Position numbers and translations under genes: made by a program. From positions 3,348,001 through 3,412,000 of the forward strand of contig NZ_AP024660.1 of the NCBI RefSeq assembly GCF_019977395.1: DNA of 64,000 nucleotides, given 5' to 3'. Under the pieces are notes generated by a model. It ran no database searches. It was not told the origin of the DNA and saw only the letters and a list, made by a program, of their open reading frames with translations. This document shows positions 31,064-36,572 of this stretch, piece after piece. Source of the stretch: Arthrobacter sp. NicSoilC5 (GTDB lineage Bacteria; Actinomycetota; Actinomycetes; Actinomycetales; Micrococcaceae). Each line of letters begins with the position of its first letter. Positions within the stretch are counted from its first letter, which is position 1.

Positions 31064-31237
31064 TTATTGCCGAGGGTGGGGTGGCGGGGGTGGTTTGAAG
31101 TAGTGGTTTTGTTGGGGTGTTTGGGTGGGGTCGATGTGGGGTGGGGGGATGAAGGCTGGAGTGCCGGGGGTGGTGGTGATGGTCCATTGTTCTTTGTGGA
31201 CGAGGTGGTGGTGGTGGCTGCAGAGCAGGACGCCGTT
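31064..31237 (-). pseudogene. 3' remnant of DUF222/HNH endonuclease gene
   Basis: Read on the minus strand from 31237 this stretch encodes the end of an HNH protein: NGVLLCSHHHHLVHKEQWT, then a Pro-rich tail to a TAA at 31064-31066. NGVLLCSHHH is the conserved second half of the HNH zinc/metal motif. It continues in frame from the large 5' part at 34976-36479; the 3.7-kb element separates the two. On its own it is not a gene. Confidence 0.88.
31231..31237. repeat. Left attachment core (CGCCGTT)
   Basis: CGCCGTT here and at 34976-34982 are the direct repeats bounding the element. The bases on both sides differ between the two copies, so seven bases is the full identity. The serine integrase start lies 26 bases to the right. 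Confidence 0.82.
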
Positions 31238-31262
31238 ACTGACGCTTTGTTAGTCCGACCCC

Positions 31263-32663
31263 ATGCAAAAGCCCCGCTCGGCCGCGATCTACGCCCGCAT
31301 CTCCTCAGACCAGACGGGGGAGGCCCTGGGCGTGACACGCCAGCTGGAGGACTGCCGGAAACTCGCCGCCGATCATGGCTGGACCGTGGGTGAGGAGTAC
31401 GTGGACAACGACATCAGCGCCTTCAAAGGAAAGCCGCGGCCGCAGTACCAGCGGATGCTCGATGATCTTGCCGGAGGCTACCGTGACGCCGTAATCGTCT
31501 ACAACATGGACCGGTTGACCCGGCAGCCGATGGAGCTGGAACAGTTCACCAAGCTGTGTGAACTGGCTGGGGTGACACAGGTCAAATCCGTGACAGCGGA
31601 CATCGATCTTGGCAATGATGACGGCCTGTTCATGGCCCGCATCCTGGCAGCGATTGCCTCCAAAGAATCCGGCCGGAAGTCCCAGCGCCTCCAGCGCAAG
31701 GCGCGTCAAACCGCAGAACAAGGACTACCGAACGGCGGACACCACCGCCCCTTCGGATATGAGCAGGACCGCATGATGGTCAACGAGGCCGAGGCGGAAA
31801 TTCTTCGGCAGGCCGTGGCCCGGTTCCTCGCCGGGGAATCATCACGTTCCATCTGTGTGTGGCTGAACGAGGAAGGCGTACAGACCACTGCTGGTGGTCA
31901 GTGGCAGACGATGACGCTGAACGCGATACTCAAATCCGGGCGAATCGCAGGACTGCGGGAACACAAGGGAATCGTCGTTGCGGACGCCCAGTGGCCCGCT
32001 ATCATCACACGTGAACAGCGACAGCAGATTCTTGGCCATTTCGAAACCAAGAGGCGCACGAACGCCCGCGCCCCGCGCCGCTACGTCCTCTCCGGGCTCC
32101 TTCGCTGCGGCAAATGCGGAAACAAACTATTCTCCGCCATTCGCGTCGACACCCGCCGCTACGTCTGCCTGTCTGGGCCCGACCACGGCGGTTGCGGTGG
32201 CATCGCGATCGTCGCCGCCCCACTGGAAGAGTTTCTTGCCGCAGGCGTTCTTATGCGCCTGGACACCATCGAGTTGTCCGAAACGCTGAAAGGCCGCCGC
32301 GCAGCCGACGACCGACAAAGCACCTTGCTTGAGTCGCTGGAAGATGACCGGAACCAGATGAAGGAGCTTTCTGAACTATGGGCAGCGAAAGACATCTCGA
32401 GCGCGGAGTGGAAGGCCGCCCGCGGTCCCATCGAAGCCAGAATCAAAGCCACCGAACGGCAGCTGGTGCAGGCATCCAACTCAACAGCACTTGATGGCCT
32501 GATCGGCACCGGCAGCCAGCTGAAGGAACAGTGGGAAACGCTGAACCTTGACCGGCAGGCCGCGATCATCAAGGCCGTTTTGGACTATGCGACCATCCTG
32601 CCCGGAACACCTGGGGCACGGTCACTGGACCCGGCCCGGATTCAGCCCGTGTGGCAGCTATGA
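31263..32663 (+). CDS. Large serine recombinase (integrase)
   Basis: 466 residues. The N-terminal resolvase domain starts with AAIYARISSDQTGEALG; the nucleophile should be S14 in YARIS. IVYNMDRLTRQP supplies the conserved Arg residues. A recombinase domain follows (about 165-260; HHRPFGYE, FLAGESSRSICVWLNEEGV), then a zinc ribbon with LRCGKCGNKL...RRYVCLSG..GGCGG (about 280-310) and a C-terminal coiled-coil stretch (about 345-440). This is the complete domain order of phage/ICE large serine integrases, though at 466 residues it is near the short end. The start is 26 bases inside the left attachment core, as expected for an integrase. The upstream ribosome site is weak. Confidence 0.92.
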   Translation: MQKPRSAAIYARISSDQTGEALGVTRQLEDCRKLAADHGWTVGEEYVDNDISAFKGKPRPQYQRMLDDLAGGYRDAVIVYNMDRLTRQPMELEQFTKLCELAGVTQVKSVTADIDLGNDDGLFMARILAAIASKESGRKSQRLQRKARQTAEQGLPNGGHHRPFGYEQDRMMVNEAEAEILRQAVARFLAGESSRSICVWLNEEGVQTTAGGQWQTMTLNAILKSGRIAGLREHKGIVVADAQWPAIITREQRQQILGHFETKRRTNARAPRRYVLSGLLRCGKCGNKLFSAIRVDTRRYVCLSGPDHGGCGGIAIVAAPLEEFLAAGVLMRLDTIELSETLKGRRAADDRQSTLLESLEDDRNQMKELSELWAAKDISSAEWKAARGPIEARIKATERQLVQASNSTALDGLIGTGSQLKEQWETLNLDRQAAIIKAVLDYATILPGTPGARSLDPARIQPVWQL

Positions 32664-32828
32664 CGCCGCGGCGGTACTCCGGCCGCTGCCGCGTCCGTCC
32701 GTTCCCTGCGCGGCACCCATAAGCACGCCAACCCGGGCAAGAACACCGGGATCAGTCACGCGAACCGGAACACCCTGGGCAGCGCACGTGGCCTCCACCC
32801 ACTCAGCCAGCACCCGCTGATCGACCAT
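32658..32828 (-). CDS. Small protein coupled to Rep
   Basis: 56 residues (MVDQRVLAEWVEATCAAQGVP...). The ATG overlaps the Rep stop codon by one base (TGATG), indicating translational coupling, and the gene's end overlaps the integrase stop by six bases on the opposite strand. It is Val/Ala-rich and probably one or two helices. Its size and location beside Rep and integrase suggest an accessory role such as an excisionase or copy-control factor, but there is no motif to prove it. Confidence 0.6.
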   Translation of the reverse strand: MVDQRVLAEWVEATCAAQGVPVRVTDPGVLARVGVLMGAAQGTDGRGSGRSTAAAS

Positions 32829-33604
32829 CACGCACCCCACTGCGCCCAGATAGCAGGGGCACCTGCCCAGTCCTCAACGGAAGCCGAAGACCACTGCGTG
32901 ACAGGTGGGCCGTTCAGGTAATCGGAAGCCTGGGCGAGAACGTCACCGGGGGAGTCGCCGCTGAGAGCAAGTCTGACCGGTTGGAAGCCCTGCGCCACGT
33001 CGTAACGGTGCAGCCCGAATACCCGCGACTCTGGATCAGTGAACGTCTTGGTCACGTACTTGGACAGATATCCGGCTGCCTTGCGGGCCTCGGACAAAGC
33101 CCCGGAGCCGACCGGCAAGTCACCCAGCAGCTTGATATGGACGTGCCCGCGGCCCCACACTTCTCTGATCAGGCGCTGCCGGATGTATTGGCCGACGGCG
33201 AAGTGGGCATGTAGGCCGTGATCTGTCTTGTGCCACTCCGGAACCCAGGCGTATGGCAGTGGAGAGCCACCAAGTCCTGACCGGAGGTCCCGGAAAAATG
33301 CGCCAAGATGGGAGCGCAGTTCCTGCGGATCATGGCAGGGCTTTGCGTATGTGAGGGTGCCGAGACGGTTGAGCCGGTTTGCTGCACAGTAGCGGCGAAG
33401 TTTCGACCGTGCCCGCTTCCCGGCCTCCGCAGCCGCACGCTCTGGATCGGCAGCAGAGCCTTTTGCCACGAACGCGCGGTTTGGTTTGTACGACGACCGG
33501 AACCCACCGCCGCCCTCGCCGGCATCCGGAAACAGCGAGAAGAACCAGCCGGCATCGGCGGCGATGAGCCGGCCAAGAGAAGTGCTGACAGGTGACGTAG
33601 ACAT
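32828..33604 (-). CDS. HUH-type replication initiator/nickase (Rep)
   Basis: 258 residues from the ATG at 33604. The frame stays open upstream to 33727, but that part does not resemble the family. Central residues 129-134 read HGLHAH, giving the His-hydrophobic-His metal site of rolling-circle initiators. Further on, GYLSKYVTK (about residues 178-186) offers Tyr179 and Tyr183 as nucleophile candidates, with the neighbouring Lys expected in motif 3. An N-terminal YCAANRLNRLGTLTYA segment gives motif 1. Such proteins nick an origin hairpin and start rolling-circle replication. Its pairing with a serine integrase on so small an element is notable. Confidence 0.8.
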   Translation of the reverse strand: MSTSPVSTSLGRLIAADAGWFFSLFPDAGEGGGGFRSSYKPNRAFVAKGSAADPERAAAEAGKRARSKLRRYCAANRLNRLGTLTYAKPCHDPQELRSHLGAFFRDLRSGLGGSPLPYAWVPEWHKTDHGLHAHFAVGQYIRQRLIREVWGRGHVHIKLLGDLPVGSGALSEARKAAGYLSKYVTKTFTDPESRVFGLHRYDVAQGFQPVRLALSGDSPGDVLAQASDYLNGPPVTQWSSASVEDWAGAPAIWAQWGA

Positions 33605-34051
33605 AGGACCCCAAGAGAACGAAACCGACAAGGAATCGCCAAGGTCCACTGAGAAAAGAAAACAGAAGTTGATTTTCGACAGGGGCCTCAGCATCCGGTC
33701 TCGCTCCGGCGGGCCCAACTCTGTCATTTAACCGTGAGCATTCCGTATGGACGCGGGCCTACCACGCTGCTCAGCCCCTCAGGAAGGCCACCTGCTAAGA
33801 ATCCATACCGGCCCTGAGTTGGTCCTGCCGGGTACTGCAATGCGCCCATCTTGCCACACGAATTACACGGCTGTCACTACCTGCCGCGGGACCGTTCGTC
33901 CTCGGACGCTGAGCGTCCTCCGGGCGCTGCGTCCCTTGCCATCTGTCCCTGTGGTTTGGGTTCTCGGTCTGCTGGGACACTTCCGAGTTATGTTGCTATT
34001 TCAAGTAAAGGCGGTTGTGCCGCCTGCGGCGTCACAACCGCTTCGAGGCAG
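33605..34051. other. Element noncoding region with hairpins, candidate replication origin
   Basis: 447 bases without a convincing gene, upstream of Rep and downstream of the HEPN-like gene. It holds GGACGC-TGA-GCGTCC at 33903-33917 and a longer hairpin with GCGGTTGTG at 34011-34019 pairing with CACAACCGC at 34033-34041 around a GC-rich loop. The latter could also be the terminator of the HEPN-like gene. A Rep nick site would be expected in a region like this, but no conserved nick motif was recognised. Confidence 0.45.
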
Positions 34052-34906
34052 TTACGGCGTCTTCGCGTTCGCCACTTGAATGTCACGGATCATTCGGTTA
34101 GTCACGTCAAGGCTGAGTGACAAAAGATCCTGCGCTTCGTCGAGGTCGTACACTTTGTCGGGATGCTGAGTCGGATTGCGATAATTACGGCGGATGCTAT
34201 CAAGTGCATCCAAGAGGCCCGCCGGAACCTTTTTCTCTTTGAGGTGGGTCACCATCGGGCCCCACATAAGCGGCTGCTTGATTCGATTCCGCCGTACCTT
34301 GCAGCAGTAGTAATGCCGGAGTACCGCTTCGGTTCCACGCATAAGATGGAACGCTGCAGATGTCGGTAGTTCGTATGCGATGCACCGTCCGGCCTCGCGC
34401 ATATCTACCTGGGCGATTTCCGGGAGCTCAGCAAAGACTCCCGACGCCATCAAAGTAGAAAACTCGTCGGTGAGCTTCTGGATCGTATAACGCTTATCTG
34501 ACGCGGCATAGTTAATCTTCCCGGATGCCTCGGCCAGAAGGGCCTCGCGAAGAATCTCAGCTCGCCTCCACAGTTTTTCCGTTTCTTCCTGCGTCAGTGC
34601 ACGTGGGCTTGTTGCCGTGGCTCCAGAAATGGATTTGTCTCCGTCTTCCATCTTTAGGAGGTCTAACTCTGCCGGCTTGGCAGGGTCCACTCCAGCTTCC
34701 CTTTCCCAAGCCTTGATCATCTCGAGTAGGGGGTGGAGCAATCTGTGCGTGACATGGAATTCGTACCGCTGCAGAAGCAGGTCGAGCTGCTGGATATTTT
34801 CCGCAACGGCACCTTCGGAAAATATCAGCGACCCGGAATTCGCGTCCATGAGATACCGAACAGCGGTACCGATGTATATATATCCGGCCGTAGACCTTTT
34901 TTCCAT
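34052..34906 (-). CDS. HEPN-like cargo protein of the element
   Basis: 284 residues, mostly helical, no membrane segment. The C-terminal 100 residues look like a HEPN fold: a helix with HLMRGTEAVLRHYY (about 187-200), then LDSIRRNYRNPTQHPDKVYDLDEAQDLLSL, which contains R243-N-P-T-Q-H248, an R-x4-H motif typical of HEPN RNases. The N-terminal half has no domain I recognise. It is the only gene on the element not devoted to mobility or replication, and the codon use is A/T-richer than its neighbours. A defence or toxin function is an attractive inference. No antitoxin or nucleotidyltransferase partner is adjacent. Confidence 0.6.
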   Translation of the reverse strand: MEKRSTAGYIYIGTAVRYLMDANSGSLIFSEGAVAENIQQLDLLLQRYEFHVTHRLLHPLLEMIKAWEREAGVDPAKPAELDLLKMEDGDKSISGATATSPRALTQEETEKLWRRAEILREALLAEASGKINYAASDKRYTIQKLTDEFSTLMASGVFAELPEIAQVDMREAGRCIAYELPTSAAFHLMRGTEAVLRHYYCCKVRRNRIKQPLMWGPMVTHLKEKKVPAGLLDALDSIRRNYRNPTQHPDKVYDLDEAQDLLSLSLDVTNRMIRDIQVANAKTP

Positions 34907-34975
34907 GCTTCTTTTCGCTTTCCCCTTGATCCCCGGCTAGCCTACAGCCCGAGAAGAGGACGTATTAACAATTAG

Positions 34976-34982
34976 CGCCGTT
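34976..34982. repeat. Right attachment core (CGCCGTT)
   Basis: Second copy of the 7-bp core, at the junction between element and the 5' part of the HNH gene. On the minus strand it forms codons AAC GGC of the HNH gene. Confidence 0.82.
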
Positions 34983-36479
34983 GTTGGTGGTGGTGGGCCC
35001 GCCGTGGGACCAGTAGGTGATGTGGTGGGCTTCGCACCAGGGTGCGGGGGGTGGTGCAGTTGGGGAAGGCGCAGCCTTGGTCGCGGGTGGTGAGGGCGGT
35101 GCGTTGGGCGGGGGTGAAGAGGCGGGTTTTGCGGCCGAGGTCGAGGATTTCGCCGGTGGTGCCCAGGAGGGCGGGGATGATGTCGGCGTCGCAGGCGACT
35201 TTGCGGAGCGTGGCGGCGGGGACGGGTCCGGTGAAGGCGAAGGTCCCCGTACCTGTCACTGTTTCTGCGCTGTGGTCTTTGCTTGTGGGTGTGGCGGGGT
35301 TGGGGGGAAGAGGTCTTGGTAGTTGATAGTGGCGATGATGTGGGGTCGGTTGCCGCCGGTTGTGGGCAGGGTGTTGGTGGTGAGGGCTGTTTTTGCGGCG
35401 GTAATGAGGCCGTCGAGTTGTTTCTGGGCGCGGGTGCGCCGGTCCAGGTCAATCCCGCCGGGTTGGCATGCTGCTGCCTTGTCCCCGGCGGTGCGGGGGT
35501 TGGTGGCGGTGTTCATGACGGTGAGGAGGTGTTCGTATTGGTCGGTGGTGGCGAAAATCTCGAGGTGGTGGAGGCCGTGGCGGGGCTTGCGGATGAAGGC
35601 GCCCTGGGTGTGGCGGAGGGCTTCTTCGGTGGGTTCGCTCCCGTCGGCGTCGATGGTGTCGGTCCAGCGTTGGGCGACGCGGGTCAGGAAGTCAGGGTCG
35701 GTGGTGGTGGCGGCTGTGGTGAGGTGGTGTTCGATCGTGTCCAGGGTCTCGGCGGTGGTGTGGTGCTGGAGCCGGTCCAGGGTTGCCGTGATGAGGGTGG
35801 CGGCGTGCGAGGACACGGCAGGTCCGTACCCGGCCGGGGACGTGATCCCGGTCTCCGTGGCCCCTGTGGTGGTGGGGGTGATTGCGGCGGCGAGGTGGGG
35901 CCGGGCTGGTGGGAGTGGTTCGCCGGTGAGGCTGGTGGCCGGGAGGACCTGGTGGGCGAGGGTGAGGCGGCGGCGGGCTTCGCGGATGGGGATCCGCAAG
36001 CGCAGGCGGAGGAACTCCGCAGTGTTCCGGCACCCGTCATCGGCCGGTGACACCACCGGGCGGCCAGGACCGGCGGGCGGATTGGGCCAGGTCGCGTCGG
36101 TCTCAACCACGGCGGCGGACCGGGCGGCACGGGTCGTGGCTGCGGCGTCGGTGATGGCCTGGGCGCGGGTCCGGTCCACCGCCCCGGCGCCCAGGAGCTG
36201 CAGGTACTCCACGCTCCGGGCGAGGTCCTCGGCGCGGGCGGCGAACTCGGCGGCCTCGAGATAAGAGGCAGACGCCAGAACATCCGGGGCGGCCACGGCA
36301 ACGGCCGCGATCCGGACCGCCAACCCAGCCAGGAGGTCCTGGTGGCCAGGACCTGTGGCCCGGTGCTGTGAAGCCTCCCCTGGGACCGCATGAAGGTGGG
36401 CCGGGCGCGGCAGCCAGCTGCCGGCGTCGTACGCTTTCCGGCCGTACGCCGCACCAAGATGCTCCCCAATGGCCTCCAT
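34976..36479 (-). pseudogene. DUF222/HNH endonuclease gene, 5' part, frameshifted and interrupted
   Basis: The probable start is the ATG at 36479. The N-terminal DUF222-type domain reads well (AGAVDRTRAQAITDAAATTRAARS, then RLRLRIPIREARRRLTLAHQVLP). The frame then breaks twice: a G6 run (plus strand) at 35302-35307 and another at 35046-35051. The middle segment (TGTGTFAFTGPVPAATLRKVACDADIIPALLG, LFTPAQRTALTTRDQGCAFPNCTTP) is in a different frame. After the second run the original frame returns (PWCEAHHITYWSHGGPTTTNNG) and continues across the element into 31064-31237. The family is multicopy in Arthrobacter-type genomes. Homopolymer sequencing error could explain the shifts, but the insertion alone breaks the gene. 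Confidence 0.85.
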
Positions 36480-36572
36480 AACCACACTCTGCCAGCCACC
36501 ACTGACAACGAAGAGACCCAAAGACCCCTATGTGGAAAACGCGCGAACCGTAGTGGATCCACCCTTAAACAC

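Follow-up and report, generated by a model that had tools for sequence, protein, structure and literature searches.

A stretch of 64,000 nucleotides from Arthrobacter sp. NicSoilC5 (contig NZ_AP024660.1, positions 3,348,001 to 3,412,000), referred to here as the window and numbered from its first nucleotide, contains an integrative element of 3,752 bp (31231-34982) that interrupts a DUF222-HNH gene and has the sequence CGCCGTT at both ends (31231-31237 and 34976-34982). As proposed in a first-pass annotation of this DNA, the element has four genes, all of which are open, i.e. those for a large serine integrase (Int), a small conserved protein (ORF60, for open reading frame [ORF] 60), an HUH-type replication initiator (Rep), and one cargo protein. 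It is present in a single copy in its own genome, and its G+C content is 60% (54% for the cargo gene) vs 67% for the window. Relatives of the element carry varied cargo next to the same Int, ORF60, and Rep, and some cassettes have the att arms, a cargo gene, and the candidate replication origin without these three genes. Based on these data, we consider it likely, with a probability of roughly 0.78, that the element integrates by itself, replicates as a rolling circle, and serves as a minimal carrier of a single defence gene, and that copies without this engine are moved in trans. We found no description of this actinobacterial element family in the literature. The features of the element and its flanks are as follows.

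31080..31230, minus strand: 3' part of the disrupted DUF222-HNH host gene (approximately residues 515-565 of the intact paralogue; 92% to the paralogue by tblastn)
31231..31237, no strand: att core copy adjoining Int (CGCCGTT on the plus strand; in the relatives read, only AA, i.e. TT on the plus strand, is common to both junctions)
31238..31262, no strand: attP arm on the Int side (minus strand, GGGGTCGGACTAACAAAGCGTCAGT); a similar arm lies upstream of int in relatives
31263..32663, plus strand: Int, 466 aa; Resolvase, Recombinase, and Zn_ribbon_recom above Pfam cut-offs; phrog_95 integrase, 1.7e-99
32658..32840, minus strand: ORF60, small conserved protein and candidate recombination directionality factor (RDF), overlapping Rep and the 3' end of int
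32828..33604, minus strand: HUH Rep, 258 aa (ORF open to 33727); REP_ORF2-G2P, 2.2e-14, above cut-off
33684..33709, minus strand: conserved hairpin CCGG-N7-CCGG in the Rep leader, seen in the family alignment
33861..33880, minus strand: operator-like palindrome in the presumed Rep promoter, consensus GAATNACA-N4-TGTNATTC, matched here at 12/14 positions
33983..34010, minus strand: candidate double-strand origin (dso), CTTTACTTGAAATAGCAACATAACTCGG, with the predicted nick between 34002 and 34001
34011..34041, no strand: 14-bp inverted repeat abutting the candidate dso
34052..34906, minus strand: cargo, 284 aa, with a C-terminal HEPN-type domain containing RNPTQH (by motif, model, and structure alignment)
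34951..34975, no strand: attP arm on the cargo side (minus strand, CTAATTGTTAATACGTCC...), part of the matrix training set; similar arms lie at the borders of relatives
34976..34982, no strand: att core copy on the cargo side (CGCCGTT on the plus strand)
34983..36521, minus strand: 5' part of the disrupted DUF222-HNH gene (DUF222, 2.8e-16), with its own frameshift near 35256

Joined by eye, the two flanks read ...GPTTTNNGVLLCSHHHHLVHKEQWT..., which is the same as in the intact paralogue at G000:C1:3947142-3948887. This paralogue lies in the same genome and spans the junction with 96% DNA identity to the joined flanks. The restored host frame proposed earlier therefore agrees with the paralogue; however, the host gene carries a frameshift at 35256-35280 that is separate from the insertion, and therefore, removal of the element would leave the gene not fully open. 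Uninterrupted HNH copies, i.e. empty sites, exist: a joined-flank query was matched in 120 of the 121 genus genomes, and many of the matches listed span the junction. The target is multi-copy because, in addition to the disrupted gene, 12 places in the own genome match the paralogue protein, i.e. the paralogue itself and 11 distant matches over its last part. The sole sequence common to both junctions in every relative with both junctions readable is AA (usually AAC); the heptamer is therefore partly a local coincidence, and the conserved att core is AA and not the 7-bp repeat. The first-pass annotation had tied the borders to CGCCGTT to the extent that the same genes without it would count against them. 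The repeat at both ends was confirmed, and most relatives lack it; nevertheless, the borders are unmoved, since those relatives that lie in HNH genes have their ends close to the same codon and carry similar arms.

The DUF222-HNH gene is the site of 19 of the 40 distinct elements. Its left half was found in 18 loci (loci are numbered L), and, in those measured against the paralogue, the matching stretch stops at residues 509-528, mostly 518-520; its right half lies at most 60 bp from int in 8 loci. A second target, identified by eye in L017, L035, L071, and L072, is the Walker A codon (GK/TT) of TadA/CpaF-like genes. The att arms are imperfect inverted copies of each other: the int-side arm reads GGGGTCAGACTAACAAAG...AA and the opposite arm AA...CAAGTTNNTAATACGACCC. 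We used a left-arm matrix trained on 12 loci (17 loci for the scoring of L115-L121), for which the scores of the training loci are by construction. In 14 loci outside the training set, the best site of the 12-arm matrix scored 15.7 to 26.6, with runner-ups mostly below 9. The best site was weaker in L072 (10.5) and L068 (8.2), and the matrix gave nothing convincing in L018, L027, L035, L073, L074, and L076. The best site coincides with the end of the HNH half in L023, L062, L063, L064, L068, and L070; elsewhere, it is a prediction only. Extra left arms are present within elements, between cargo genes, in L020 (3588, score 22.0), L064 (5859, 18.6), and L066 (5433, 12.4); by eye, none of the three is preceded by an int-side arm. 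These arms are possible traces of cargo accretion.

Int has the three domains of a large serine integrase, and att arms with a short shared AA core lie beside its gene. Together with the Pfam match of Rep, these data agree with the earlier proposal of a minimal integrative element that combines a serine integrase, an HUH Rep, and one cargo gene. The Rep ORF as called extends over 32828-33727 on the minus strand. In four relatives, one in-frame TAG is present within the aligned Rep stretch, and their open frames align from M42; therefore, the Rep protein is probably encoded by 32828-33604 and comprises 258 aa. Thus, the HUH Rep on the strand opposite to int was correctly recognized, while its start is probably at 33604 and not at the ORF opening at 33727. 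Rep residues H132xH134, Y179, and Y183 are invariant in 16 of 16 aligned sequences, and we take H132/H134 and Y179/Y183 to be the catalytic residues of the two-tyrosine HUH (phiX174 gpA/G2P-like) class. The Rep leader (33605-33850), which contains the CCGG hairpin, is conserved and possibly structured. Further upstream of Rep, the palindrome GAATNACA-N4-TGTNATTC is matched at 11 or more of its 14 positions in 22 of 39 loci and may be an operator or a Rep-binding site. It is conserved although no evident repressor gene is present in the window element, and its binding partner may be Rep or a regulator of the host.

Searches with Rep gave matches in 7 of 295 genomes of the family, 13 of 396 of the order, and 6 of 396 of the phylum (own genome included each time), and a search of GTDB contigs gave 20 loci. 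A related Int is convergent to Rep in 33 of the 41 Rep-bearing loci, at 134-818 bp past the end of the Rep match, i.e. the same layout recurs at other sites, which was a check proposed in the first-pass annotation. Among the other eight loci, L026 (the other half of L025, with which it forms one element) and L029 end inside Rep at a contig end, L031 has a different integrase, L036, L071, L072, and L079 have Rep fragments only, and L078 has a distant Rep in an AT-rich genome. The 33 loci include L022 and L030, which carry a partial int at contig ends. Of the 33 loci with Int, 32 have ORF60 homology in the interval that separates Rep and Int; in L020, the match falls on int itself; L039 was excluded from the ORF60 alignment because of a stop in frame. 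L003-L012 are shorter fetches of loci, most of which were kept under other numbers; L034 equals L014, L037 covers L019, and L077 equals L031. The named hosts include Arthrobacter, Sinomonas, Cryobacterium, Microbacterium, Kocuria, Agrococcus, and Homoserinimonas; further hosts are metagenome-assembled genomes labelled Pseudonocardiales, Actinomycetota, and Dormiibacterota. By predicted borders, the elements are approximately 3.5-7.8 kb long. The identities of Rep and Int correlate (Mantel r 0.71, reached by 0 of 2000 permutations) in the 20 of the 33 loci with Int in which the best stretch was long and without stops.

The most constant DNA observed in the family is a block of 28 bp, CTTNACTTGAANNNGCAACRTAACTCGG, located between the cargo and Rep on the Rep-coding strand. 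At least 20 of its 23 fixed bases are matched in 33 of 38 loci. Fewer are matched in L028 (15 bases, apparent indel), L071 (18), L072 (16), L078 (14), and L079 (13). The patterns for the block and the palindrome were derived from a 20-locus alignment, and scores on those loci are by construction. The own genome has one copy of the block, even at 3 mismatches. Among the 26 loci for which the distance from the block to the preceding cargo ORF is given, 25 have distances of -9 to 65 bp, while L019, in which the ORF is doubtful, has 345 bp. The cargo stop codon is inside the block itself in L026, L063, L069, and L070; in L016 and L023, the called minus-strand ORF extends beyond the block, and its start was probably called too far out. 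Because ACTTG/AA in the block resembles what we take to be the nick sites of phiX174 and pC194 and because Rep conserves two tyrosines four residues apart, we read the block as the Rep nick site, i.e. a candidate dso, with the predicted cut at ACTTG/AA.

On the other side of the block, the passenger slot varies and includes genes for TIR, ApeA, DUF4062, PIN, OLD-like ATPase, HEPN, and unknown proteins, which agrees with the suggested resemblance to small carriers of defence genes. We scanned 40 cargo candidates, of which those of L018, L027, L035, L073, and L079 (no left border) may be host genes. In L014, L026, and L033, Rep is 81-95% identical to that of the window element, and the cargo has no similarity to the window cargo. 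In the latter, the RNxxxH motif (R243, N244, and H248) is invariant (29/29), and in an AlphaFold2 model with a pLDDT (predicted local distance difference test) score of 89.5, residues 159-278 align to HEPN structures. Thus, the initial description of this protein as HEPN-like holds. It matched no PADLOC model up to E 1. The cargo is a putative HEPN ribonuclease that would most likely act in abortive-infection type defence. The defence candidates of the slot are this HEPN protein, DUF6414, the L017/L023 family, and the GDNS-motif family of L020, L065, and L068.

The exact dso pattern is present in 10 of 396 order genomes, while a reversed control had no match among the matches listed. Five of the 10 genomes (G597, G547, G529, G621, and G614) have no Rep match, and G653 has two copies beyond that of its complete element. 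In L115-L121 (approximately 6 kb on each side of the dso), we detected no homology to Int, ORF60, or Rep at E 1e-3; this search was limited to the integrase family of the element, and on visual inspection, the ORFs enclosed by the arms do not look like recombinases. Found by the dso alone, L116, L119, L120, and L121 have both att arms, a cargo gene, and the dso without the Int, ORF60, and Rep of the family. Their left arms score 29.6 (L116), 20.7 (L119), 31.8 (L120), and 26.9 (L121). Set against the int-side arms of the complete elements L063-L066, their own int-side arms match at 24 of 27 bases in L119, 23 in L120, 20 in L116, and 18 in L121; each is the best site in its 12 kb, with the next best at 17, 16, 17, and 16, respectively. 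L121 is the weakest in this comparison, yet the general matrix ranks its arm first (17.5); the same matrix gives only approximately 8 for the int-side arms of L119 and L120, and the L116 arm is not among the matches listed. The cassettes are 1,185 bp (L116), 2,386 bp (L119), 2,229 bp (L120), and 3,571 bp (L121) long. L116 has an 8-bp repeat, AATGGAGC, and no host gene could be clearly recognized from the joined flanks of the four cassettes. Only a left arm was found in L115 (19.8) and L118 (12.5), and L117 has none that is convincing. By eye, the L118 protein starts like DUF4062 proteins, and L120 has an ATPase-like protein.

L119 and L120 align by blastn over 389 bp (85%), a stretch that starts 12 bp ahead of the ACTTGAA in the dso and ends at the attR core; elsewhere, blastn gave only one 30-bp match in the flanks. 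Their cargo regions have no match by blastn or tblastx, and their insertion sites differ. Each matches the complete L064 over approximately 255-262 bp from the dso (87% and 82%, respectively). In whole-locus tblastx, the matches listed also include flank-flank matches, probably of DUF222-like genes. Thus, the same engine-less backbone occurs at different sites and with different cargo, a pattern consistent with movement in trans and a breakpoint located at the dso. Alternatively, the two loci may have arisen by independent deletion and later exchange through ordinary recombination. Overall, autonomous and cis-only members seem to coexist, with the dso and att sites bracketing the cargo. The first-pass annotation had overlooked the dso block, the att arms, the second target, and the cassettes without an engine.

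In the mechanism that we favour, Int, probably aided by ORF60, would excise a circle from the HNH gene by attL x attR recombination and reinsert it at the same conserved place in another HNH copy. On the circle, Rep would nick the dso at ACTTG/AA to start rolling-circle replication, and the nicked strand would be copied in the order Rep, ORF60, int, attP, with the cargo last. To enter new cells, the circle or a single strand would rely on the transfer machinery of another element, most likely a conjugative one with a coupling protein able to accept the complex of Rep and DNA. The cargo, located between the att core and the dso, where the element's own enzymes should act, would be swapped among family members, and copies that lack Int, ORF60, and Rep and retain the att arms and dso would be moved in trans. 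Extending this scheme, a tentative possibility is a two-tier mobile defence system, with autonomous mini-elements (Int, ORF60, and Rep) on one tier and, on the other, cis-only cassettes that consist of an att arm, a defence gene, the dso, and a second att arm and are served in trans by the same enzymes. In such a system, dso-dso joining by Rep together with Int recombination would exchange defence genes, as a strand-nicking counterpart of the integron.

Among the four proteins of the window element, we found no Tra protein, canonical relaxase, coupling protein, or phage protein; not every locus was scanned for tra. Rolling-circle replication (RCR) initiators can act as relaxases, as described in PMC5704250; therefore, a borrowed conjugative apparatus is our first choice for transfer and phage packaging the second. 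By analogy, Rep could double as a relaxase. If packaging were the route, the element would be a phage satellite of which the Rep-made single strands or concatemers are packaged by a helper phage, with the cargo acting against the helper or its rivals. The small size, the single defence-like cargo, and the matches of Rep to phrog_3419 and to a Pfam family named for filamentous-phage G2P would agree with this. However, PHROGs gave no structural or packaging family for any of the four proteins, no Rep relative is present in 50,697 phage records, and no relative of Rep or Int was confirmed in viral contigs, all of which makes a satellite unlikely.

ORF60 is located between Rep and int, and this is the position of xis in actinomycete integrative and conjugative elements (AICEs) as described in PMC3218068. 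Its predicted structure was too poor for use. Weak ORF60 relatives are present near integrases with 55-57% identity to Int on two plasmids. The one on an M. avium plasmid (E 3e-4) has as neighbours the integrase with 55% identity, a replication initiator, and an FtsK-like gene; the other (E 4e-7, frame with a stop) is on a Gordonia plasmid. Because ORF60 seems to follow Int across Rep types, we favour it as the candidate RDF. The M. avium plasmid (pS2b; L040 5962-10823) carries this AICE-like set of Int relative, ORF60-like protein, replication initiator, and FtsK-like protein beside a transposase gene.

These plasmid neighbours, which include an FtsK/SpoIIIE protein, would also agree with an AICE remnant that has lost tra and kept replication only for persistence. 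Elements without tra or rep are described as remnants or mobilisable elements, and one serine-recombinase AICE, Faln2929, has inserted into a putative endonuclease gene, its int facing tra and rep in convergent orientation (Ghinet 2011, PMC3218068). We nevertheless give this origin even less weight than a phage satellite: a form with another Rep class and a conserved dso recurs across distant genera, and the RepSA match is only E 0.036, below the cut-off. A third possibility, an old island immobilized as a domesticated defence locus with Int and Rep as relics, is very improbable, since the four genes of the window element are all open, the distribution is patchy, closely related Reps accompany unrelated cargo (L014, L026, and L033), and the engine-less L119 and L120 have a common backbone at different sites, even if several members, like the host HNH gene in the window, are frameshifted.

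The favoured reading, a self-integrating rolling-circle element with a single defence gene, places the element close to several known systems. The REP13E12 repeat of M. tuberculosis is a DUF222-type gene, and phiRv1 differs from the element in its phage-like gene content; the two were compared by description only and not by sequence. Like the element, phiRv1 has a serine recombinase, and it lies within a REP13E12 repeat (PMC9317374). With AICEs of the pSAM2 type, the element shares an integrase, a small gene in the xis position, a rolling-circle initiator, and occurrence in actinobacteria, and with Faln2929 also the serine recombinase, the type of target, and the convergent int (PMC3218068). 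Unlike AICEs, it has no FtsK/SpoIIIE-type Tra among its four proteins, its Rep is of the REP_ORF2-G2P type (apart from the RepSA match under cut-off, no RepSA, RepAM, or Prim-Pol family was matched up to E 1), and its family has a variable, often defence-like slot and engine-less cassettes. The element has its own integrase and att sites, and its excision is predicted. It works like AICEs and integrative mobilisable elements (IMEs), falls outside the AICE definition, and is a candidate IME. Streptococcal IMEs with RCR-type relaxases likewise combine an integrase with an RCR initiator-like protein, and serine integrases that disrupt genes occur among them (PMC5357655, PMC5704250). As described, these IMEs are 5-18 kb (one is 53 kb), and a TcpA coupling protein is encoded by 83 of 118 with an RCR-type relaxase, whereas the elements described here are approximately 3.5-7.8 kb, the window element has no coupling protein, and the slot is bounded by att and dso. 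The engine-less cassettes resemble cis-mobilisable elements, which have att sites without integration or transfer genes; unlike those, which are described as decayed parts of IMEs or integrative and conjugative elements and as being moved by tandem accretion (PMC5704250), the cassettes stand alone and keep the candidate replication origin.

The element would be a complete yet very small integrative carrier of immune genes and a concrete system for testing how single defence genes are swapped. The 28-bp DNA signature finds members without a protein search, and the family is a source of serine integrases whose actinobacterial target is conserved and present in multiple copies. Movement of cis-only cassettes in trans, if it occurs, would give a simple origin for defence genes at HNH and tad loci. 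As to more distant relatives, L078 (7253-7918) has a distant Rep relative without integrase or dso in an AT-rich small genome, and in L031 (1-3343), the gene for the Rep relative is followed by that for the different integrase, which has the same orientation, and by a DUF222 gene.

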